In this document: positions 2,514 to 26,656 of the stretch, in pieces
Numbering within the stretch: position 1 is the first letter of the stretch
Layout: each line of letters starts with the position of its first letter
Assembly (NCBI GenBank): GCA_016875405.1
Contig: VGRJ01000034.1
Coordinates: forward strand, 1 to 39,514
Direction: 5' to 3'
DNA from: Deltaproteobacteria bacterium
Lineage (GTDB): Bacteria; Myxococcota_A; Polyangia; Polyangiales; Polyangiaceae
Length of the DNA: 39,514 nt
Notes under the pieces: model-generated
The model's input: only the letters and a program-made list of their open reading frames with translations
The model's database searches: none
What the model was told of the DNA's origin: nothing
Position numbers and translations under genes: made by a program

Positions 2514-3361
2514 TCGATCCACGGATTGTCGTTCCCCTGGGCGTCGCGGATCATACGGTTTCGGGCGCGCTCAAGCTCATCGGGCGGATCTTCAGCATGC
2601 CACCGTTCGAACAAGGCGCGAAGCTCTTCCGTGAGCACGACCGCTTCAGGATAGGCGCCGCTCATGTAGAGGTACGCTCGCGCCACGTCGCCATGCACCT
2701 CGCCTCGCGGCTCGACGACGCCCTTGCCGAACCGAAGCCCGCACGACGGAAGCTCGCGGTGACGAACGCTGGTCTCGACGACGAGCCCCATCGGCGTATC
2801 CCCACGCGCGCCGTTCACGTCGCCGACCTCCGGGAAGAGGTTGTGGAGATCGCCCTCGAGCGCTTGAAACAGCCTCGACACGCGTCGCGCGCACTTGCGC
2901 CCGCGGAAGGGCTTGTCGCGCTTCTGGCAGCGCGGGTGCCCGTCGCGCCACTCGGGGAGCGCGCCCCCGAAGGTCGCCGCCGGGACAACGTGCTCCCACT
3001 CGACGGCTGGGCGCTTCGCGTGCTGGCGCGCCACGCAGCAACGGGTGAAGTCGACCTCTCCGCCGACGAGCGGGCAGCTCGAGTAGAGCGTGGTCGCGCC
3101 TCGCTCCGCGTAGAACGCGCGGAGGTGCTGCTTCGCCGCGCGGAAATCGAGCGGGCGCGGCGGCCTCTCGACGGCCCGAGACGCTGGCGACTCCGTGAGA
3201 GCGCGAGGGCTCGAGCGCGCCGGGGCGGCGGATGCCTGTGCCTCCTCGACCCGCAGCGGGCGCTCAAGGCGACAGCCCGTCACCACGACCAGCGAGGAAA
3301 CCAACGCAAGAGAGAGGCCAGCCGCCAGCTCCACGCGAGTCGCTTGGCCCCGCTCCCACAT
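2510..3361 (-). CDS. Endonuclease I family (EndA/NucM-like) lipoprotein
   Basis: Secreted or periplasmic non-specific nuclease of the endonuclease I family (beta-beta-alpha metal type). The 283-residue product starts with a lipoprotein signal: hydrophobic residues 12-29 and a VVTGC lipobox with Cys30. The catalytic segment EWEHVVPA (121-128, His124) is followed by the family signature GDLHNLFPEVGDVNG (170-184), which carries a conserved His173-Asn174 pair. Several cysteines between 96 and 207 could form disulfides, in keeping with an exported protein. Residues 31-70 are a low-complexity Ala/Ser/Pro linker. It is the first gene of a two-gene minus unit with the GH31 gene, and both products look like envelope or extracellular hydrolases for macromolecule breakdown. 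Its ATG lies only 25 bp from the divergent FHA gene. Confidence 0.88.
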   Translation of the reverse strand: MWERGQATRVELAAGLSLALVSSLVVVTGCRLERPLRVEEAQASAAPARSSPRALTESPASRAVERPPRPLDFRAAKQHLRAFYAERGATTLYSSCPLVGGEVDFTRCCVARQHAKRPAVEWEHVVPAATFGGALPEWRDGHPRCQKRDKPFRGRKCARRVSRLFQALEGDLHNLFPEVGDVNGARGDTPMGLVVETSVRHRELPSCGLRFGKGVVEPRGEVHGDVARAYLYMSGAYPEAVVLTEELRALFERWHAEDPPDELERARNRMIRDAQGNDNPWIE

Positions 3362-3386
3362 CGGTCCATAGTGTACGCAGGTCGGT

Positions 3387-3914
3387 ATGGAGCGGGAGCC
3401 TCAATACGTCCGGGAGTTCGCCGAAGAGCTAAAGACTCTTGGCCCGACGGCGTTTCAAGTAAAGTACCGCGGCTCCGTCCTCGTCGGTGTCGGCCTCGTC
3501 GCAACAGTCGCGGACCGACCCCTCTCGTGGAAGCGTCGCACCCTGGGCGCGATTCCAGACGATGGCGTCCACGAGACCGACACGATCGTCGGTCGAGTGT
3601 GGCGCATCCGCAAGGGTGAAGGAGCGCAGCGCGGCGCCGGGATCATGGTCGGTCAGTCTGCGGACAACGACCTCATCCTCCCCGAGTACACGGTCTCGAC
3701 CCATCACCTGTCGTTCGGGTTCGACGCGGCGGGCATGTCGATCACCGACCTCGGCTCGCTCAACGGCACCAAGGTCGACGGCGTGCTCGTGGAGCCGCAC
3801 AGCGTCTTTCGCATCAAGGACCGTCAGCAGATCACGATCGGGCGAATCTGCTTCGACTACCTCGCGTCGGAGAGCTTCGTCGACACCGTCCGTCGTGAAT
3901 CCGAGCGACGCTGA
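3387..3914 (+). CDS. FHA domain protein
   Basis: 175-residue cytoplasmic protein with a C-terminal forkhead-associated domain, a phosphothreonine-peptide reader. The FHA core runs from about residue 68 to 160: VGQSADNDLILPE, then the VSTHH segment, then TDLGSLNGTKVDG, which is the DxGSxNGT signature. The usual Gly-Arg of the first loop is Gly-Gln here, so the phosphopeptide-contacting Arg is shifted or missing. The first 60 residues resemble no domain I know. It stands alone on the plus strand between two minus units and ends 6 bp from the stop of the sulfatase-like gene. No kinase gene is adjacent, so its partner is unknown. The domain call is certain, the role is not. Confidence 0.85.
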   Translation: MEREPQYVREFAEELKTLGPTAFQVKYRGSVLVGVGLVATVADRPLSWKRRTLGAIPDDGVHETDTIVGRVWRIRKGEGAQRGAGIMVGQSADNDLILPEYTVSTHHLSFGFDAAGMSITDLGSLNGTKVDGVLVEPHSVFRIKDRQQITIGRICFDYLASESFVDTVRRESERR

Positions 3915-3920
3915 GGCGGC

Positions 3921-6245
3921 TCACTTTCCCTTCACGTCGATGACGCGAAGGTGCGACTTCGCGAGGGCATAGGCCGCTTCGATCTCGGGACGCCGCGCTT
4001 TCCAGACGTCCTTGTCTTCGGTCGGGTCCTTCGCGAGGTCGTAGAGCTCCTTCGCGGCGTCACGCGACACGATGAGCTTCAGGTCTCCGTGGATCAGTGC
4101 GCGGCGCGCCTCGTTGTACGGACCGGCGGGCATGTCGATGAGGACGTCACGCGCGGTTGCCACGCCACCGACGAGTTCAGGAACGAGCGACGCGCCCGAG
4201 ATGAAATCGCTCGAGCCTTGCGGGGCCTCGTCGCGGCTTGGTGCAGGGGGAGCGCCGACGAGATCCAGCAGCGTCGGCGCGAGGTCGATCAGACTTCGAC
4301 GCTCTGAGACTCGCGCGGCGGCCTGGCCAGGCACGTGCACGATCAGCGGGACGCGCACGAGCGACTCCCAGAGCTCGAAGCCGTGGCGCATCATGCCGTG
4401 CTCGCCAAAGGCCTCGCCGTGATCGCTCGTGACGACGATGTTGGTGCGGCCCGCCCATGACTTCGTCGCGAGGTGGTCGAGCAGGCGACCGACGTGCCGG
4501 TCGGTGTGCAGCACCTCGTGGTCGTATTGCTCGCGAGGCGAGCGACCGAAGGATGGTACGTCGCGATGGGCGAGATAATCGGCGTGTGGGTCGAGGTAGT
4601 GCACCCACAAGAAGAACTGCGCATCTTCGGCCAGCGCGTCGAGCTCCGCGATCGCCGCGTCGGTGAGCTTCTCGCTGGTCTCGGTCTGATCGGTCGCCCA
4701 GCTCGTCCCCTCGGGGGGCGCCGCGTCGAGGTTCACCGTGTCGAAGCCGCGATCCAGCCCTCCGAACGAGCCGAAATACCGATGCGCATGAACGCTGACG
4801 GTGCGGAGCCCTGCCTTGCGAAGACGCTCGGCGACGAAGGTGTCCTCGTCGGAGAACTTGTTGAAGTGTCCCCAGTTGCGGTGCGTCTCGCTCCCGTACT
4901 TTCCGATCAGCGTCGGGCCGACGCTCTTGCCGGTGTAGGAGGCGAGCGAGTACGCGCGCTCGAAGACGACCGAGCGCTTCGCGAGCCCGTCGAGGTTCGG
5001 CGATATCGGGCGCGGATTGCCGGCAAAACCGAGGTCCGCGCGCAGCGTGTCGATCGTGACGAGCACGACGTTCCCCCGCTTAGGGAGCCGCTCGCGGGCC
5101 GCGGGCGCGACGGGCGGCGGAGCCGGCGCTGAGGAGGCCATGCCCTTCAGGGAGAGGTCACCCCCCGAGCAGTCCTCGTCGATCCCGTTGTCGGGGAGGT
5201 CCTCGGCGGCCGGGCCGATGCGTGGATCGCGGTCATCGCAGTCTCCACCGCCATACCAGCGGCTCGCGCCGTCGCGGTCGCGATCGCCCACTCGACGGAG
5301 GAGCGCGAGCGGGAGACGCGCGATCGGCGCCCCGCGTTCAAAAACGCGCGCGAGCTCCGGCGCCGCGTCGAGATCGCGCGAGGCCTTCACCGTGACGGCG
5401 AGCGCAACGATGGGCAGCGCGATCGTCGCGGCTCGTGTCGAGCGGCCGAGCGCACTCGGGCCGAGGTAGACGAGCGCGGCAAACGCGAGCCACGCCCCGG
5501 GCATTCGAAGGTCGAGCTCGGGCCGCTTCAAGATCCCGTAAATTCCTAAAAGACCGCCTTCCCCCGACACGGTCCCATGCCAGATCCCGTGCGCGACGAG
5601 GGCGGCGACGACGATCAGCGCGAGGCCGAGGGTCCTCGCTGGATCGAGGAGCCACGGCGCTTGCGAACCTGCGCGCGCGAGCGCATGACGAAGCCACGGC
5701 GTCGCTGCGAGCACGAGGATGGCCACGATGGCCAGTAGCACGAGCGCTCCAAGCGCCGTCGTCGCGCCGATGAGCCACGAGGGCCCTTCAACGGCGAGCG
5801 ACGCGCGCGCGAGCTGACCACCAAGCGTGCACCACACGAAGAGGCTCACCGTCGCGAGCGGCACGAACGCTGCGACATCGGCAGGGCGCCCACCGGCGAG
5901 TCCGCGCAGCTGCCCCAGCAGACGTGGGATGCTCGGGGGAACACGCGGGTGGATGAGCCAGCTGGCGACCCCGAGGGCCACGGACACGACGAGCGCGAGT
6001 GGCCCCACGAGGCCGAGCGCTGCGAGGAAGGTCGCGACGTGCGAAGCACTGCCGGACGACTCGCGCATCCAACGAGCGTCGACGATCGCGAGCCCGAACG
6101 CCCCGAGGCCTCCGACGGCGAGGCTCGCCTCGAGTCTGCGTCGGAGCTCGTCGGTGCGAGGCATCCGAGACGGGCGCCCCTTCGAGGTTGGCGGACGTGC
6201 TGCGCTCTGCGTCGACGGCCTTGAGCCACGGTCCTCGACGTTCAT
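3921..6245 (-). CDS. Polytopic membrane sulfatase-like (alkaline phosphatase superfamily) hydrolase
   Basis: About 774 residues. The N-terminal half is a membrane domain with roughly six hydrophobic helices between residues 44 and 287. A MopE-like Asp/Cys-rich motif follows (about 321-362: DRDRDG, GGDCDDRDP, DNGIDEDCSGGD). The C-terminal half is a sulfatase-like domain with metal ligands at Asp399 (TIDTLRAD) and Asp608-His609 (TSDHGEAFGEHG). No C/S-x-P-x-R formylglycine motif is present. The nucleophile position reads ASYTGKSV with Thr438, as in phosphoglycerol/phosphoethanolamine transferases. Transfer or hydrolysis of a phospho- or sulfo-group on an envelope polymer or lipid is therefore inferred. 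The ATG at 6245 lies 4 bp after the xerC stop with AGGAG inside xerC. A TTG at 6278 is the longer alternative. It is the last gene of the infC unit. Confidence 0.85.
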   Translation of the reverse strand: MNVEDRGSRPSTQSAARPPTSKGRPSRMPRTDELRRRLEASLAVGGLGAFGLAIVDARWMRESSGSASHVATFLAALGLVGPLALVVSVALGVASWLIHPRVPPSIPRLLGQLRGLAGGRPADVAAFVPLATVSLFVWCTLGGQLARASLAVEGPSWLIGATTALGALVLLAIVAILVLAATPWLRHALARAGSQAPWLLDPARTLGLALIVVAALVAHGIWHGTVSGEGGLLGIYGILKRPELDLRMPGAWLAFAALVYLGPSALGRSTRAATIALPIVALAVTVKASRDLDAAPELARVFERGAPIARLPLALLRRVGDRDRDGASRWYGGGDCDDRDPRIGPAAEDLPDNGIDEDCSGGDLSLKGMASSAPAPPPVAPAARERLPKRGNVVLVTIDTLRADLGFAGNPRPISPNLDGLAKRSVVFERAYSLASYTGKSVGPTLIGKYGSETHRNWGHFNKFSDEDTFVAERLRKAGLRTVSVHAHRYFGSFGGLDRGFDTVNLDAAPPEGTSWATDQTETSEKLTDAAIAELDALAEDAQFFLWVHYLDPHADYLAHRDVPSFGRSPREQYDHEVLHTDRHVGRLLDHLATKSWAGRTNIVVTSDHGEAFGEHGMMRHGFELWESLVRVPLIVHVPGQAAARVSERRSLIDLAPTLLDLVGAPPAPSRDEAPQGSSDFISGASLVPELVGGVATARDVLIDMPAGPYNEARRALIHGDLKLIVSRDAAKELYDLAKDPTEDKDVWKARRPEIEAAYALAKSHLRVIDVKGK

Positions 6246-20066: not shown

Positions 20067-20621
20067 ATGGCGAAAGCAGAGGACGGAACGAACCCCGAAG
20101 GGCACATCTGGCGCATCGCCCCGACGCGCCGCGACATGTTCGGGTTCCTTGGCTGGGGAGGCGTCTTGACCTCACTCGGCATCGGTAGCCTCGCGTTCGT
20201 GCGGTTCATGTATCCCCGCGTCTTGTTCGAGCCAGCTTCGCGCTACGGCATCGGAAAGCCCGTGGAATACGGGGTGAACTCGGTCAGCGAGAAGTGGATC
20301 AAAGCGCTCCGCTTCTGGCTCGTGCGCTTCGACGACCGCTTCGTCGCCCTCAGCGCGACCTGCACGCATCTCGGCTGCACGCCGCGCTACCTCGGCACCG
20401 AGGACAAGTTCAAGTGTCCGTGTCACGGCTCAGGCTTCCGCGGCTACAAGGGCAGCTGGAAGGCCCTCGGAGTGAACTACGAGGGCCCGGCTCCTCGTCC
20501 GCTCGAGCGTTACTTGCTCGCGACGGATGACACCGGACAGCTCGTCGTGGACCTCGGCAAGGCCTACCGCATCGACAAGGGCCAAGCAGACGAGACCGGC
20601 GCGTTCCTGCCGTACGCCTGA
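20067..20621 (+). CDS. Rieske iron-sulfur subunit of a quinol:cytochrome c oxidoreductase
   Basis: 2Fe-2S protein that takes the first electron from quinol at the Qo site of a bc-type complex. 184 residues. One N-terminal transmembrane helix spans about 25-47, preceded by APTRRDMFGFLGW, a twin-arginine-like stretch, as expected for Tat-inserted Rieske proteins. The cluster ligands are CTHLGC (Cys99, His101) and CPCHGS (Cys117, His120), with Cys104 and Cys119 able to form the conserved disulfide. The spacing between the two boxes is normal. It is the first gene of a four-gene operon (Rieske, b6, subunit IV-like, octaheme cytochrome c). The order Rieske-b6-IV recalls qcrABC and petCBD, and the split cytochrome b is of the b6f/Firmicutes type. 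Confidence 0.95.
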   Translation: MAKAEDGTNPEGHIWRIAPTRRDMFGFLGWGGVLTSLGIGSLAFVRFMYPRVLFEPASRYGIGKPVEYGVNSVSEKWIKALRFWLVRFDDRFVALSATCTHLGCTPRYLGTEDKFKCPCHGSGFRGYKGSWKALGVNYEGPAPRPLERYLLATDDTGQLVVDLGKAYRIDKGQADETGAFLPYA

Positions 20622-20750
20622 CGTCCCGTCGCTGCCGCTCGACCGTCTCCGCTCCGCTCGCATCGTTCGATTCGCCCGACTGAACATCATTCCCCGGTGG
20701 CCGATTCGACCACCGGTCCCCCTCAACCACTGCGACATCGAGGAAATACC

Positions 20751-21518
20751 GTGGAAAAGAAAGGCTGGTGGGACATCGTCCGCAGCTCGTATGTGTGGAA
20801 GAGCGTCTTCCGCCACGAGTACCAAGACACCTACCGCAACCGCGTTCTGCAGGTGTCGTCCAACGTCTTCCTCCACTTGCACCCAACCAAGATCCGGCGC
20901 CACGCGCTGCGGCTCAGGTTCACGTGGTGCATGGGCGGGACGACGTTCCTGCTGTTCCTGATCCTCGTCGTGACCGGCGTCATCCTGATGTTCTACTACC
21001 GGCCGACCGGTGAGTACGCCTACCACGACATGAAGTACCTGCAGTTCGACGTGCCCTTCGGCATGATCATGCGCAACATGCACCGCTGGGCGGCGCACGC
21101 TATGGTCATTGCGGTCTGGCTGCACATGTTCCGCGTCTTCATGACGGGCTCCTACAAGCCGCCGCGCGAGTTCAACTGGGTCATCGGCGTCAACCTGCTG
21201 GTGTTCACCCTGCTCTTGTCCTTCACCGGCTACCTCCTCCCGTGGGACCAGCTGTCGATCTGGGCCGTGACCGTCGGCACCAACATGGGCCGCGCGACGC
21301 CCCTCCTCGGACACGAGGGGCCCTTCGCCGAGCTCGTCGGCGTGAACGCTCGTTACGATGCGCGCGCGCTCCTCACCGCCGGTCGGCTCGTAGGACCCGC
21401 TACGCTGCTCCGATTTTACGTTCTCCACTGCATCTTCATCCCGCTCGTCGCGGCCGTCCTCATGATCGTGCACTTCTGGCGTGTGCGTAAGGACGGTGGC
21501 ATCAGCGGCCCTCTGTGA
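20751..21518 (+). CDS. Cytochrome b6-type subunit of the bc complex
   Basis: Four-helix diheme cytochrome b that carries electrons across the membrane between the Qo and Qi sites. 255 residues. The b-heme ligands are His111 and His125 (HX13H in helix B) and His226 and His241 (HX14H in helix D); the 13/14 spacing is the b6 pattern. The C-terminus [11 protein letters not shown] closely matches cytochrome b6. Cys60 in FTWCMGG aligns with the b6f cysteine (YCLGG) that binds heme c_n covalently. The N-terminus is about 25 residues longer than in chloroplast b6. The GTG at 20751 is chosen because GAGGAA precedes it; upstream in-frame residues from 20697 are not b6-like. The Rieske gene lies 129 bp upstream and subunit IV 23 bp downstream. 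Confidence 0.95.
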
Positions 21519-21541: not shown

Positions 21542-22378
21542 ATGGCTCAAAGCGTTCTCGAAGGTTCCGAGGTCGAACGTGGCGACCGCTCCGACGTCGC
21601 CAAGGTGAAGGAGCGAACGGCGAAGGCCGAGCGGCTTTCGAAGGCCTTGCCGGACAAGGTCCACACCTGGCCTTACCTTGTTCGGCTGGAAATGATGGTG
21701 GGCACTGGCCTGCTCGCCTTCATGACCATCTGGTCGATCCTCGTCGACGCGCCCCTCGAAGAGCCGGCGAATCCGACCAAGACGCCGAACCCGTCCAAGG
21801 CGCCTTGGTACTTCCTCGGGCTCCAGGAGCTGCTTGTCTACTTCGACGCCTGGTTCGCAGGCGTCGTCCTGCCGGCGATGATCATCGTCGGGCTTATGGT
21901 CATTCCGTACGTCGACATCAATCCGAAGGGCAACGGTTACTACTGCTTCAAGGACCGCTGGTTTGCCGTGTCCTTCTACCTCTTCGGGTTCGTGGTGCTG
22001 TGGATCTCGACGGTCATCATCGGCACGTTCTTCCGCGGCCCGGGTTGGTACATGTTCACCCCGGGCGAGTATTGGGACGTGCACAAGACGGTCGCCATCA
22101 CGAACATGGACTGGCCAACCAAGTTCGGCATTACCTCGTTTTGGCCCGCCTTCGGCTTCGGCGCGGCGAGCGTCCTCGGCTTCCTGTTTGGGCCGCCCGC
22201 AGTTTACTGGAAGTTGAAGAGTGGGACGAGCACGACCCTCCAAAAGCTTGGTGCGGTCCGCTACTGGATCGTGGCCTTCTTCGTGATGTCGACCGCGGGC
22301 GTCGTCGTGAAGATGATCCTGCGCCTCGGCTTCAACGTGAAAAACATTATGGTCGGCCCCATGGGCTTCAACATCTGA
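21542..22378 (+). CDS. Cytochrome b subunit IV-like (PetD/QcrC-type) protein
   Basis: Second half of the split cytochrome b. It completes the Qo site and lacks b-heme ligands. 278 residues, much longer than the roughly 160 of chloroplast subunit IV. After a charged N-terminus it has helices at about 53-69, 104-122, 141-162, 198-216 and 241-260, so about two extra helices follow the usual three. The Qo-site segment reads NPSKAPWYFLGLQELLVYFD (83-102). KAPWY occupies the place of the PEWY motif, so the Glu is Ala. FFRGPGWYMFTPGEYWD (163-179) is a distinctive loop. It is co-transcribed with b6 (23 bp upstream) and the octaheme cytochrome (24 bp downstream). The subunit assignment is strong; the function of the extra helices is unknown. 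Confidence 0.88.
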   Translation: MAQSVLEGSEVERGDRSDVAKVKERTAKAERLSKALPDKVHTWPYLVRLEMMVGTGLLAFMTIWSILVDAPLEEPANPTKTPNPSKAPWYFLGLQELLVYFDAWFAGVVLPAMIIVGLMVIPYVDINPKGNGYYCFKDRWFAVSFYLFGFVVLWISTVIIGTFFRGPGWYMFTPGEYWDVHKTVAITNMDWPTKFGITSFWPAFGFGAASVLGFLFGPPAVYWKLKSGTSTTLQKLGAVRYWIVAFFVMSTAGVVVKMILRLGFNVKNIMVGPMGFNI

Positions 22379-22402: not shown

Positions 22403-25400
22403 ATGTCTCGCTTCGTTCGCGACGAGAAGAGGACTTTCCCGTTCACGTGGCTTGCCATCGGTGGCGTCTTAGCCGCGACCGCGCTGTGGGCCGGCTATGC
22501 CGAGTTCACGTCGCGCGTGCCATGGCAGAACAACCAACAGCGCTTCTTCGAGCTCGATCTCGAGCTCGCGCGGAAGGCCAAGGAGGCGGCCCAGTCCGAC
22601 TGGGAGAAGGCCTCCGAGCGGGACCCGCTGAGGGGCAAGCTCATTGAGCTCCAGAAGCTCGAGGCCGAGATGGCCCCGCGCGCCGACGGGAGCTACGACG
22701 GCAACACCGAGTACGGCAGGTCGCAAAACCTGCTCGCGAAGCTGAACGCCGACTTCCTCTCGGCCGAGACCGGCAAGACCTTCGGCGCGAGCGACCTCGA
22801 CGAGGCCTACTACTACCGCAACATGGCGGAGTACGACCGCGATCACGCTCAGGTCGCGGTTCGCCGCCTGTACAAGGAGACCTTCGCCGAGTCCGACGCC
22901 GCGCGCGTCGACGAACCGAACGCGATTTACGCCGACCCGCCCAAGCCCGAGAGGACTGCGGACCAGAGCGCCGAGCTGCATCACCTCGTGTCGGAAGTGG
23001 CGCGCATGAAGGCGCATGTTGACCAGATCGACAAGGCCACCTCGCTGAACCCAGGCCCCGAAGTCGTCAAGGCCCTGCGCGCGTCGAAGGCTGCAGAGCT
23101 GAAGGTGGTGACCTCGCTCGAGTCGGAGATTCAGCACCAGGGCCGGATCGACCAGGCCCGCGCGAAGATGTCCGCCATCGATGGCCCGGGCGAGCCGATG
23201 GTCGCCGAGAAGGAGCCCGCCAAGCGCGACGCCGCCATCGAGCAGGCGCGCAAGGCCGCGTGCACCGGCAGGGAGGAGACGCGCAACTGCGTGAAGTGGC
23301 TACAGATCGAGCCTGCGGACGCGAAGTTCAAGGCAGTCTCGCTCGCCGTGAGCAAGGCCAAGCGCCCGCTCGTCGAGGCCGAGGAGCGCTTCAAGAACGC
23401 CGACGCCAAGGCGCACCCGAAGTTCGACCCCGCGAACCCCCTCGCGTTCCTCATCGGCCCCTTCGAGATCAAGCAGACCGTCACCAAGTGGCTCGACTTC
23501 AAGCGCGACGTCGACATTCAGCAGGTCGACCGTTGCGAGACCTGCCACCTTGGCGTGGACAAGCCCACGTATACGGCGAGCGACGTGCCGCGCGAGTTTC
23601 GGACGCATCCGCGCCGGGACATGCTGCTTGCCTCGCACCCCCCCGAAAAGTTCGGCTGCACCTCGTGCCACCAGGGGCAAGGACGCGCGACGAGCTCGGA
23701 GTACGCGCACTCCACCATGAACCTGCACGAGCACCACGGTGACGAGCGCTGGCACATGGACGGCGACCACCACTGGGAGGACCCGCTCCTCCAGGTCGGC
23801 AAGCTCGAGAAGATCACGATCGATGGCCGAAACGACGAGTTCGAGGTTCGCGTCGGCAAGAAGAAGGTGACCGTCAAGCTGGAGCACAAGCTCTACGCTG
23901 ACGAGACCGAATTCTTTGGCGAGCTCAAGAGCAAACTCGCGGAGGCCCTTCAGGACAACCTCGCGGGCTTCAAGCTCGTTGCGGACAAGCTCGACAATCG
24001 CGTTCGCATCGGCCTCGAGGCCACCGACGACGTCGACGCTGCCAAGCGTCCGAAGGCCATCGGCCTCGTGTTTCCGAAGCAGGAGCTCGGCAAGATCCTG
24101 GGCTTCATCGGTCCGTATAGCGGCTCCAACATGAAGAGCGATGGCTCGCTCACGAAGCGCGCCGAGCTCGAGTCGCCCAACCTGCTCCTCACGGCCTCCA
24201 ACCCGCCGATGCTGCCGGTGCGTGCCGCGAACGACCAAGCGCAGGGCACCTGGGTCGACAATGACAAGGAGTACAAGTACGTGCCGCCGCGCGGCTCGGC
24301 CGGTCTCCAGATCAGCGACGCAGAGCGCAACCGCTTCATCCAGTCGCTGCCCGAGGTCGAGTCGGGCTGCCTCCGATGCCACGCGACCGACTCGGACCTC
24401 GCGCCCCATAACTCGCGGGCCAAGTTCATCGAGGCGAAGCTCGCGTACGAGAAGGCCGAGGTGGAGCGCGCGCACGATCCCGAGGGCTATCGAAAGGCCC
24501 ACGGGACCGACGAGCTGCCTCGAGTTCCCGCCGACACGATCGAGTCTGCCTCGCTCGCGCCGACGCTTGACCAGGGGCGCTGGACCTTCCGTCAGCTGAA
24601 CTGCAACGGCTGCCACCTTCTCGAGGGTTACGAGAACAACAAGGACGCCGGTCCTGCGCTCGACCACGTCAGCGCGAAGGCCGACCCGGAGTGGCTTATC
24701 TCGTGGATTCGCTATCCGCGCGGATTCCGGGCGAAGACGAGCATGCCGAACCTGTGGCCGGCTCCGATCGACCCGGCTTCGAAGGTCCCGTATGCTGAGG
24801 GCTCGCCGCAGCATTCGAAGTGGCTCCAACTCCGCGCCGATGAGACGGTGGCGATCGCCGCCTACCTCTACGAGCGCAGCGAGAACCCTGCCACCCTCCC
24901 GGGGGCGGGCAAGGCAAAGGACGCGAAGCCGCTGCGCGAGCAGATCAAGGGTTACGCGGACGTCGAAGGTGCGAGCGCCGAGCACGGCAAGGCGCTGTTC
25001 GAGGCCTACGGTTGCCAGGGCTGCCATGCGAACACCGAGGGCGCTAGCCTCCCGGATTCGTGGCGCGGTCGCGAGCGTGACATCGCTCCGAACCTGGCCA
25101 ACGTCGCGTCGAAGACCAACGCCGACTGGCTCGCATACTGGGTCGAAGACCCGCAGCGCTACTGGCACGGGACCGCGATGCCCAACCTGCGCCTCTCGCG
25201 CAAGGAGTCGGCGAGCGTCGCGAAGTACCTCATGACGCTAAAGAGCGAGGCGCTCGCAGCGGCTCCGGTCACCAAGGCTGAGGCGGAGCTCGTCGCGGAT
25301 GCGAATAAGCGGGCGGAGCTGGTTACGTGCGCTGCGGCGGGCGGCGCCAAGATGAGCCGCGTCGACTGCGGCGAGAAGACGATCGCCTACCGCGGCTGCT

Positions 25401-26656
25401 ACGGCTGCCACCGAATCTCGGGCTACGAGAACTTCGCGCCCATCGGCCCGGAGCTTAGCGGCTTCGCGAAGAAGGACACGACGACCTTCGACTACGGCTA
25501 CGCGATCGCCGACCACAATCTCCAGACGACGGAGACCTACGCCACGCTGAAGCTTGACTCGCCGCGCATCTACTCGCGCGACCGCGTCGAGCTCAAGATG
25601 GGTGACTTCGACCTATCAGCCGAAGAGATTCGCGCGCTTGTGGTGTTCTTGAAGGGCACCGTGCCTTCGACGCCGACCGCTCCGTTCGACCCGATGAAGA
25701 ACGAGCAGTACGCGGCGCAGGCCGAGGGTCGTCGACTCGTGAACGACCTCAACTGCCGTGGCTGTCACATGCTCGAGGGTCGAGGCGCCGAGATCGACGG
25801 TTGGCGAGCGGCGATCCTCGCGCAGGACGGTCAGGCTCGTGCGCCGTGGCTCGACGGCGAGGGCGCGCGCGTCCAGCCGGAGTGGCTCTTCAACTTCCTC
25901 CGTAAGCCCGAAGAGCATGGCATTCGTCCCTTCATGCACCCCGAGTGGGCATGGAAGGACGAGGTCCCGAACGACAAGTTGGCGCTGCGCATGCCGTCGT
26001 TCCGTCAGCTCACGCCGGAACAATGGACGTCAATCGTCCGCTACTTCTCGGCTTGGGACGACCAGCCCTACCCGTACCAAGTTCCGGTCGCGAACGAGCT
26101 GACGAAGGATGAGAAGCTCTGGGCCCTCCGAAACATGAACTCGGATCAGGCGGGCAATTGCCAGAAGTGCCACTTCTACGGTGAGTTCCCGGTTCAGCGC
26201 GGCCTCGAGGAGCTTGCGGCGCTCGCTCCCAACATCGCGGAGATGCGGCATCGCCTCCGTCCCGATTGGGTCCGAGAGTGGCTCCTCCGTCCAGCCAACT
26301 ACCTGAAATACACCAAAATGCCTGCCTTCTTCGCCTCGGCCAACCGCCCGAAGGACGCCGCGCGCTGGCCGGACGAGAACGATCCCTTCCTGTCGCCGCC
26401 CACGGTGGGGTGGAACGAGGCGGTGCCGGGCTTCGAGAAGCTCACCGCCGAGCAGCAGGCGACGCTCATTCGTGACTTCCTCTACACGATTCCGGACGGG
26501 GCTCCCTGGCCGGCGCGTGGGGCGGAGGATTCGAGCGTGCTCGTCGACCCGGCCGCTGGTGTGGTCGCCGATCAGGCTGGGGACGCCAAGGGCGACAAGA
26601 AGGCCGACAAGAAGGCACCGAAAACCGGGGCTCTCCCGGGCCCAATGCGGTTCTAA
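22403..26656 (+). CDS. Giant octaheme cytochrome c subunit of the bc complex
   Basis: 1417-residue membrane-anchored cytochrome with eight CxxCH heme motifs at Cys378 (CETCH), 419 (CTSCH), 656 (CLRCH), 734 (CNGCH), 871 (CQGCH), 999 (CYGCH), 1118 (CRGCH) and 1253 (CQKCH). One N-terminal helix (about 14-31) is followed by a roughly 300-residue charged, probably coiled-coil region. Hemes 1-2 form a module (HLGVDKPTY, HPPEKFGCTSCHQGQGRAT). A beta-rich insert spans about 455-600. The last five modules resemble class I cytochrome c, with likely Met ligands at MPN (781, 926), MPS (1197) and MPA (1306), and perhaps Met1066. The tail is Lys-rich. Its place after the b subunits suggests it replaces cytochrome f/c1 and relays electrons outward. 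The protein looks like a fusion of several cytochromes. Confidence 0.92.
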   Translation: MSRFVRDEKRTFPFTWLAIGGVLAATALWAGYAEFTSRVPWQNNQQRFFELDLELARKAKEAAQSDWEKASERDPLRGKLIELQKLEAEMAPRADGSYDGNTEYGRSQNLLAKLNADFLSAETGKTFGASDLDEAYYYRNMAEYDRDHAQVAVRRLYKETFAESDAARVDEPNAIYADPPKPERTADQSAELHHLVSEVARMKAHVDQIDKATSLNPGPEVVKALRASKAAELKVVTSLESEIQHQGRIDQARAKMSAIDGPGEPMVAEKEPAKRDAAIEQARKAACTGREETRNCVKWLQIEPADAKFKAVSLAVSKAKRPLVEAEERFKNADAKAHPKFDPANPLAFLIGPFEIKQTVTKWLDFKRDVDIQQVDRCETCHLGVDKPTYTASDVPREFRTHPRRDMLLASHPPEKFGCTSCHQGQGRATSSEYAHSTMNLHEHHGDERWHMDGDHHWEDPLLQVGKLEKITIDGRNDEFEVRVGKKKVTVKLEHKLYADETEFFGELKSKLAEALQDNLAGFKLVADKLDNRVRIGLEATDDVDAAKRPKAIGLVFPKQELGKILGFIGPYSGSNMKSDGSLTKRAELESPNLLLTASNPPMLPVRAANDQAQGTWVDNDKEYKYVPPRGSAGLQISDAERNRFIQSLPEVESGCLRCHATDSDLAPHNSRAKFIEAKLAYEKAEVERAHDPEGYRKAHGTDELPRVPADTIESASLAPTLDQGRWTFRQLNCNGCHLLEGYENNKDAGPALDHVSAKADPEWLISWIRYPRGFRAKTSMPNLWPAPIDPASKVPYAEGSPQHSKWLQLRADETVAIAAYLYERSENPATLPGAGKAKDAKPLREQIKGYADVEGASAEHGKALFEAYGCQGCHANTEGASLPDSWRGRERDIAPNLANVASKTNADWLAYWVEDPQRYWHGTAMPNLRLSRKESASVAKYLMTLKSEALAAAPVTKAEAELVADANKRAELVTCAAAGGAKMSRVDCGEKTIAYRGCYGCHRISGYENFAPIGPELSGFAKKDTTTFDYGYAIADHNLQTTETYATLKLDSPRIYSRDRVELKMGDFDLSAEEIRALVVFLKGTVPSTPTAPFDPMKNEQYAAQAEGRRLVNDLNCRGCHMLEGRGAEIDGWRAAILAQDGQARAPWLDGEGARVQPEWLFNFLRKPEEHGIRPFMHPEWAWKDEVPNDKLALRMPSFRQLTPEQWTSIVRYFSAWDDQPYPYQVPVANELTKDEKLWALRNMNSDQAGNCQKCHFYGEFPVQRGLEELAALAPNIAEMRHRLRPDWVREWLLRPANYLKYTKMPAFFASANRPKDAARWPDENDPFLSPPTVGWNEAVPGFEKLTAEQQATLIRDFLYTIPDGAPWPARGAEDSSVLVDPAAGVVADQAGDAKGDKKADKKAPKTGALPGPMRF

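Follow-up and report, generated by a model that had tools for sequence, protein, structure and literature searches.

The window, that is the whole stretch of 39,514 nucleotides analyzed here, contains a four-gene operon coding in order for a Rieske iron-sulfur protein, a b6-type cytochrome b, a subunit IV and an octaheme cytochrome c, with the subunit IV gene being the third of the four. Upstream it is flanked by genes for an ABC ATPase and MlaD, and downstream by an ORF without a Pfam match. The features considered below are as follows, with the residues of cytochrome b numbered from position 20757:

20067..20621, forward strand: Rieske iron-sulfur protein (PF00355), with the motifs CTHLGC and CPCHGSGF, in which the Ser is kept and the Tyr is replaced by Phe
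20697..21518, forward strand: b6-type cytochrome b (PF00033), with four heme-ligand histidines and Cys58 for heme cN
20874..20876, forward strand: cytochrome b His40, whose distance from Arg244 matches that of the ligand predicted for an interfacial heme b
21231..21233, forward strand: cytochrome b Tyr159, the equivalent of Rhodobacter capsulatus Tyr147
21486..21491, forward strand: cytochrome b Arg244-Lys245, predicted partners of the propionates of the interfacial heme
21542..22378, forward strand: subunit IV-like protein of 278 residues with five predicted transmembrane helices (ORF, PF00032, phmmer and AlphaFold2)
21689..21691, forward strand: subunit IV Glu50, the expected axial ligand of heme cN, opposite Phe40 of b6f subunit IV (compare the Kuenenia models)
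21746..21748, forward strand: subunit IV Asp69, which lies 19 residues ahead of the motif-Glu position and so corresponds to R. capsulatus His276
21797..21811, forward strand: KAPWY Qo motif, subunit IV residues 86-90, with Pro88 aligned to the motif Glu
21824..21829, forward strand: subunit IV Gln95-Glu96, the Gln corresponding to R. capsulatus Tyr302 and having an acid next to it
22139..22333, forward strand: two extra transmembrane helices of subunit IV, residues 200-226 and 238-264 (AlphaFold2; a five-helix subunit IV has been published for Kuenenia)
22403..26656, forward strand: octaheme c-type cytochrome of 1417 residues, with eight CxxCH motifs and an N-terminal hydrophobic segment

Translation of positions 21788-21847 of the forward strand yields exactly NPSKAPWYFLGLQELLVYFD, within the 278-residue ORF at 21542-22378. 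This ORF recovers the Pfam Cytochrom_B_C domain (PF00032) with 31.5 bits against a cut-off of 20.7, and phmmer pairs its residues 43-156 with residues 32-144 of b6f subunit IV (1vf5_B). As the offset between the two proteins is constant at 10 from residue 46 to past the motif, A87, P88, W89 and Y90 stand opposite P77, E78, W79 and Y80 of the b6f protein. The glutamate of the PEWY motif is usually thought to take up a proton. By this alignment APWY replaces PEWY at the Qo site, with the motif Glu exchanged for Pro88 and the motif Pro for Ala87. Translation, domain match and alignment thus bear out the original prediction that KAPWY stands in place of PEWY and that the motif carboxylate is absent, while its statement that the Glu has become Ala is off by one residue, Ala87 being the counterpart of the motif's Pro. 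An alternative PEWY-like segment was sought in subunit IV and none was found; the one string resembling it, a PGWY tetrapeptide at residues 167-170, was rejected as the true motif, as it sits after helix G and is kept, among the loci read, only in the closest two relatives, L003 and L004.

The Rieske, heme bP, heme bN and heme cN ligands are all present in the window's complex. The cytochrome b of b6f complexes is likewise a split chain with a Cys for heme cN, and Cys58 is the expected anchor of this heme in the window's protein. Glu50 of subunit IV is invariant in three alignments (A1, A2 and A3), and in the Kuenenia models, as far as the accessible part of the source goes, a Glu ligates heme cN (PMC12954380). 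Some relatives (L006-L010, L033, L056, L067, L087 and others) have Gly at the position of the heme-cN Cys, and the covalent heme cN may have been lost within the family.

A second set of residues in cytochrome b points to a further cofactor. AlphaFold3 models of the Kuenenia complexes insert an additional heme b where the two cytochrome b chains meet, with His43 (near Arg247) or His62 (near Arg266 and Lys267) as its ligand (PMC12954380). The His-to-Arg spacing in the window is 204, as in Kuste4571 and Kustd1481, and with a simple His...Arg pattern 55 of the 93 cytochrome b frames among the loci studied, the window counted once, have exactly this spacing. His40 is also invariant in a cytochrome b alignment of 21 rows (A4). 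The spacing and this invariance suggest that His40 matches the predicted heme-ligand His of Kuenenia, and a structure prediction for anammox bacteria (a heme between cytochrome b subunits, by AlphaFold3) is thereby tied to residues kept far beyond them. The His/Arg pair is retained in loci of many phyla, and the window's operon carries it with no adjoining NAD(P) oxidoreductase gene.

AlphaFold2, run with 27 relatives, predicts transmembrane helices in subunit IV at residues 44-67, 103-124, 140-163, 200-226 and 238-264. The model supports the earlier remark that the protein has about two extra helices, with five against the three of b6f subunit IV. Its mean pLDDT is 69.7, with about 79-95 in the last two helices and below 50 in the motif region, so that it gives no spatial placement of Asp69, Gln95 or Glu96. 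A Foldseek search with it returned no match at an E-value of 0.001 or better, and the top row was b6f subunit IV at 0.56. The cytochrome b model is poor (pLDDT 60.8), with four long helices visible.

These architectural features are highly reminiscent of complexes described elsewhere. A Rieske protein, a cytochrome b split into b6 and subunit IV, and an octaheme cytochrome c are shared with the octaheme complexes of Nitrospina, Kuenenia (Kuste4569-4574) and Methylomirabilis. According to the Nitrospina gracilis genome paper, that organism has this operon, which Kuenenia stuttgartiensis and Methylomirabilis oxyfera are said to share "exactly" (PMC3578206). A 2025 study of Rieske proteins from Kuenenia describes octa- and hexaheme cytochromes in its b6f-like complexes, both of which have a subunit IV of five helices (PMC12954380). 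The window's complex resembles the Kuenenia octaheme complexes in its five-helix subunit IV and in the interfacial-heme His/Arg spacing of 204. Hence both the complex and its two additional helices are of a kind already published. KAPWY is present in loci from Nitrospinota and NC10 (e.g. L049 and L044). In contrast to the Kuenenia complexes, the window's operon has neither an HAO-like octaheme protein nor an NAD(P) oxidoreductase gene beside it; the octaheme protein it does have is the one of 1417 residues. The NAD(P) oxidoreductase subunit is a Kuenenia trait, and the accessible text of PMC3578206 reports none for Nitrospina. At L049, in a Nitrospina genome, Pfam analysis did detect a gene for a pyridine-nucleotide disulphide oxidoreductase (2987-4315) immediately upstream of this type of operon, possibly linked to what has been proposed on NAD(P)H in Kuenenia. 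A regular expression for a flavin site with CxxCxxC matched nothing in the window or in any of the 80 loci retained from the contig scan described below, and was too strict, as it missed this very gene.

The complex shares with b6f the split cytochrome b, the Cys for heme cN and an ungapped Qo region. It differs from PetD, the b6f subunit IV, in that Glu78 is replaced by Pro, Phe85 by Gln and Phe40 by Glu and that there are five rather than three helices, and from b6f as a whole in having the octaheme protein in place of cytochrome f. It is unlike cytochrome bc1, with its one-piece cytochrome b and cytochrome c1, in the split cytochrome b and the multiheme c. The gammaproteobacterial PVWY cytochrome bc1 is similar in that its motif is without a carboxylate, but it keeps Pro at the first place of the motif, has Val rather than Pro at the second and retains Tyr at the 302 position. 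Among the papers listed by searches of the accessible literature, none was found to describe APWY as a Qo motif. The key motif survey, by Kao and Hunte in 2014, reportedly defines Qo-motif groups such as PPWF in archaea. The Qo motif is likewise not mentioned in the accessible portions of PMC12954380 or PMC3578206, and the APWY motif of the octaheme complexes appears to be undescribed in the literature searched.

The kinship with Kuenenia raises the question of whether this Qo site bifurcates electrons at all. The octaheme relatives in that organism have been proposed, in the text available, to be makers of NAD(P)H rather than to run a normal Q cycle (PMC12954380), and the window's complex might similarly run in reverse or divert low-potential electrons. 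The operon type is that of the Kuenenia complexes, and so is the distance between the conserved His and Arg of the predicted interfacial heme. However, the window's operon has no NAD(P) oxidoreductase gene next to it, its neighbors carrying other Pfam families or none, and the complete set of Rieske, bP, bN and cN ligands speaks for ordinary bifurcation. A site of this type is therefore quite unlikely here.

Searches with the window protein recovered matches in 37 of 235 genomes of the phylum. Among 31 loci, window included, a K-[AST]-PW-[YF] motif followed by Gln-Glu is present in 28 and PEWY in two, and the remaining locus, L029, has KAPWY with a broken continuation. With the motif in 29 of the 31 and PEWY in two, chance or sequencing error as the source of APWY is excluded by comparison across loci. 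A scan of genome contigs with the pattern [AS]KAPWYF[LV], by whose construction the motif is always present, yielded at least 590 confirmed relatives. From these, 80 loci were retained, recorded under Deltaproteobacteria, Nitrospinota, NC10, Planctomycetota, Acidobacteria, Poribacteria, Ignavibacteria, Chlorobiaceae, Gemmatimonadota and other groups. An ORF with exactly eight CxxCH motifs lies near the motif gene in 61 of the 80, several of the others being cut by contig ends. KAPWY was also encountered on a Bacteroidota plasmid (Aureibacter).

A census free of any motif pattern was obtained by searching PF00032 in 222 Myxococcota genomes, of which 59 match, at 73 places. These comprise 33 PEWY, 25 APWY (window included), nine PDFY, four PPWY and one PEWF motifs, and one match that is not a cytochrome b (L166). 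Taken together, the comparisons indicate that the APWY change is family-wide. The PDFY group (L141, L147, L148, L150-L153, L160 and L161) has lost the Trp of the motif. The four PPWY proteins, with His at the 302 position (L130, L140, L155 and L165), come from genomes of the window's own family. L112 (G195:C115) is a one-piece cytochrome b of 392 residues with a mitochondrial or alphaproteobacterial look in a Myxococcota genome, possibly a result of contamination or transfer; the His276 spacing was verified on this classical sequence.

The position equivalent to Tyr302, seven residues past the Glu of the motif, shows a paired change. In the census it is Phe or Tyr in 42 of the 43 carboxylate-bearing motifs (Ser in the other), Gln in 25/25 APWY and His in 4/4 PPWY proteins. 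In a tree of 85 rows of cytochrome b plus subunit IV, for which the 80-locus set was thinned to about a quarter, the APWY proteins form a single clade, with 49 rows and a support of 0.904, and the PPWY proteins (3 rows, support 1.0, with L165 left out along with six of the nine PDFY rows) are nested among IKPEWY proteins (0.914). The APWY rows of the tree were chosen with Gln in the pattern, whereas those of the census and of the conservation counts below were chosen without it. On this tree, the separation of the APWY and PPWY clades means that Glu gave way to Pro on at least two occasions in Myxococcota, each accompanied by loss of the aromatic residue. Outside Myxococcota a general rule that loss of the carboxylate brings Gln or His at 302 is ruled out, since Tyr persists there in the three PVWY proteins from gammaproteobacteria. 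In one actinobacterial PDWY protein the 302 position is occupied by Glu. The plasmid comparison covered eleven loci picked for diversity out of 91 records, those of Pannonibacter and Peribacillus being without a readable motif. Further, the residue after 302 is Glu in six of 25 PEWY proteins, including the window genome's own second complex. The PVWY proteins with Tyr, the PDWY protein with Glu and the PEWY proteins with a following Glu suggest that the pairing goes with proline at the second place of the motif, in one phylum and in two events.

Conservation was counted over 84 K-PW rows, in part selected by pattern, and 25 PEWY rows. The position of the motif Glu is Pro in 84/84 of the former and Glu in 25/25 of the latter, and the 302 position is Gln in 84/84 and Phe or Tyr in 25/25, respectively. 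In the K-PW rows the next residue (Glu96) is Glu in 75 and Asp in nine. This pattern admits a reading in which Gln95 and the acid at 96 make good the lost Glu: the proline would reshape the loop so that the 302 side chain (Gln, or His in PPWY proteins) or the adjacent acid accepts the proton. The near-exclusive association of 302 with the motif in the census, the origin of the pairing at least twice in separate clades and the acid next to it in all 84 rows argue for it. Yet the independent events number just two, the PPWY rows are four and confined to the window's own family, and Gln alone is no proton acceptor; the PVWY, PDWY and PEWY proteins with Tyr or Glu around this position point the same way. 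We regard this replacement as possible but improbable. A related and rather doubtful interpretation would make APWY and PPWY a distinct Qo class, in which two Glu-to-Pro losses, coupled to a switch of 302 to Gln plus acid or to His, placed the exit on another face of the pocket. If true, a clade spanning many phyla would bifurcate menaquinol by a route undescribed for PEWY, PDWY or PVWY enzymes, and APWY and PPWY enzymes would work alongside PEWY enzymes in the same cells.

Other protonable groups are retained in the family. The Tyr147 equivalent (cytochrome b Tyr159) is Tyr in 83/84 K-PW and 25/25 PEWY rows, and the Tyr297 equivalent (subunit IV Tyr90) in 83/84 K-PW rows. The His276 position (Asp69) is Asp in 62, Glu in five and Asn, Gln, Lys, Gly or another residue in 17 of the 84 K-PW rows, so that Asp69 as the sole conserved stand-in across the family is ruled out, with an acid in just 67. 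A conserved Glu elsewhere in the site that fills the same role had been named as grounds for rejecting the functional idea, and the sequences go halfway towards it, with Glu96 (eight residues past Pro88) and Asp69 as candidate acids that may face the quinol. In R. capsulatus proton transfer is blocked only when H276F and E295V are combined, either group alone being sufficient, and Y147 can carry the proton after a second change (PMC10583091, text accessible in part). Simulations, again in the accessible part of the source, make Y147 the first acceptor, with E295 acting only via Y147, and note H276D as a frequent natural substitution (PMC12199298). With both tyrosines kept and Asp69 in place, the window's complex retains the one protonable group, at 276 or 295, that these data call for. 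The proton exit route is likely in part to differ from that of PEWY enzymes.

The genomic context bears on the suggestion that the quinol type may differ, with the motif tuned to another quinol. Motif variants have indeed been reported to track quinone type (PMC9162462, PMC12199298). In the window's genome (5.02 Mb, 99% complete), the one genome in which quinone genes were tested, MenD exceeds its cut-off (410 bits against 244.2), MqnA/D is absent and UbiG does not exceed its own threshold. Contig 9 of this genome codes for a second complex, made up of a Rieske protein and a fused cytochrome b that carries ARPEWY and two CxxCH motifs. APWY and PEWY occur together in six census genomes (G000, G163, G120, G046, G137 and G204), and APWY and PPWY in one (G196). 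Complexes of both motifs in one genome imply one quinone pool for both and argue against a difference in quinol, as does the same pair of Ser and Phe near the cluster in both Rieske proteins of the window's genome. With a PEWY complex in the same genome and the menaquinone marker as the only one over its cut-off, this part of the original prediction is unsupported, and a different quinol is very improbable.

We therefore somewhat favor the view that APWY is a true Qo motif of an octaheme-type, b6f-like menaquinol:cytochrome c oxidoreductase, which bifurcates electrons without a carboxylate in the motif and lets protons exit via tyrosines, water and Asp69. It builds on the alignment with its Glu-to-Pro change, on the two tyrosines and the cofactor ligands being kept, on the operon and on the menaquinone marker gene. 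Bifurcation, the proton path and the identities of the acceptors, all of which we infer, could be envisaged as follows. The complex would consist of the Rieske protein, the b6-type cytochrome b with heme cN, the five-helix subunit IV and the octaheme cytochrome c, and menaquinol would be oxidized at Qo by electron bifurcation without any carboxylate in the motif. The first proton would depart on the Rieske histidine; the second would leave on the heme bP side, from cytochrome b Tyr159 through water to subunit IV Tyr90 and on to a heme propionate. Asp69, at the His276 position, may serve as an additional proton acceptor. Against this path counts the non-acidic residue at the 276 position in 17 of the 84 relatives. 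A search for a structure or assay of any APWY enzyme found none; among solved chains the nearest, at 31 bits, are those of b6f subunit IV.

What the Qo glutamate does has long been debated, and here a large natural family does without it, with Pro in 84 of 84 aligned sequences. The presence of APWY and PEWY complexes in a cell that apparently makes menaquinone only would render the motif separable from quinone type, and through its natural variation the family allows one to test which groups carry the proton and whether the Qo glutamate is needed. The octaheme APWY enzymes are widespread and little studied, and in this genome provide a second quinol-oxidizing enzyme beside an ordinary one. A further residue distinguishing the two sets is cytochrome b His114 (21096-21098), five residues past the first heme bP ligand, which is His in 82/84 K-PW and 0/25 PEWY rows.
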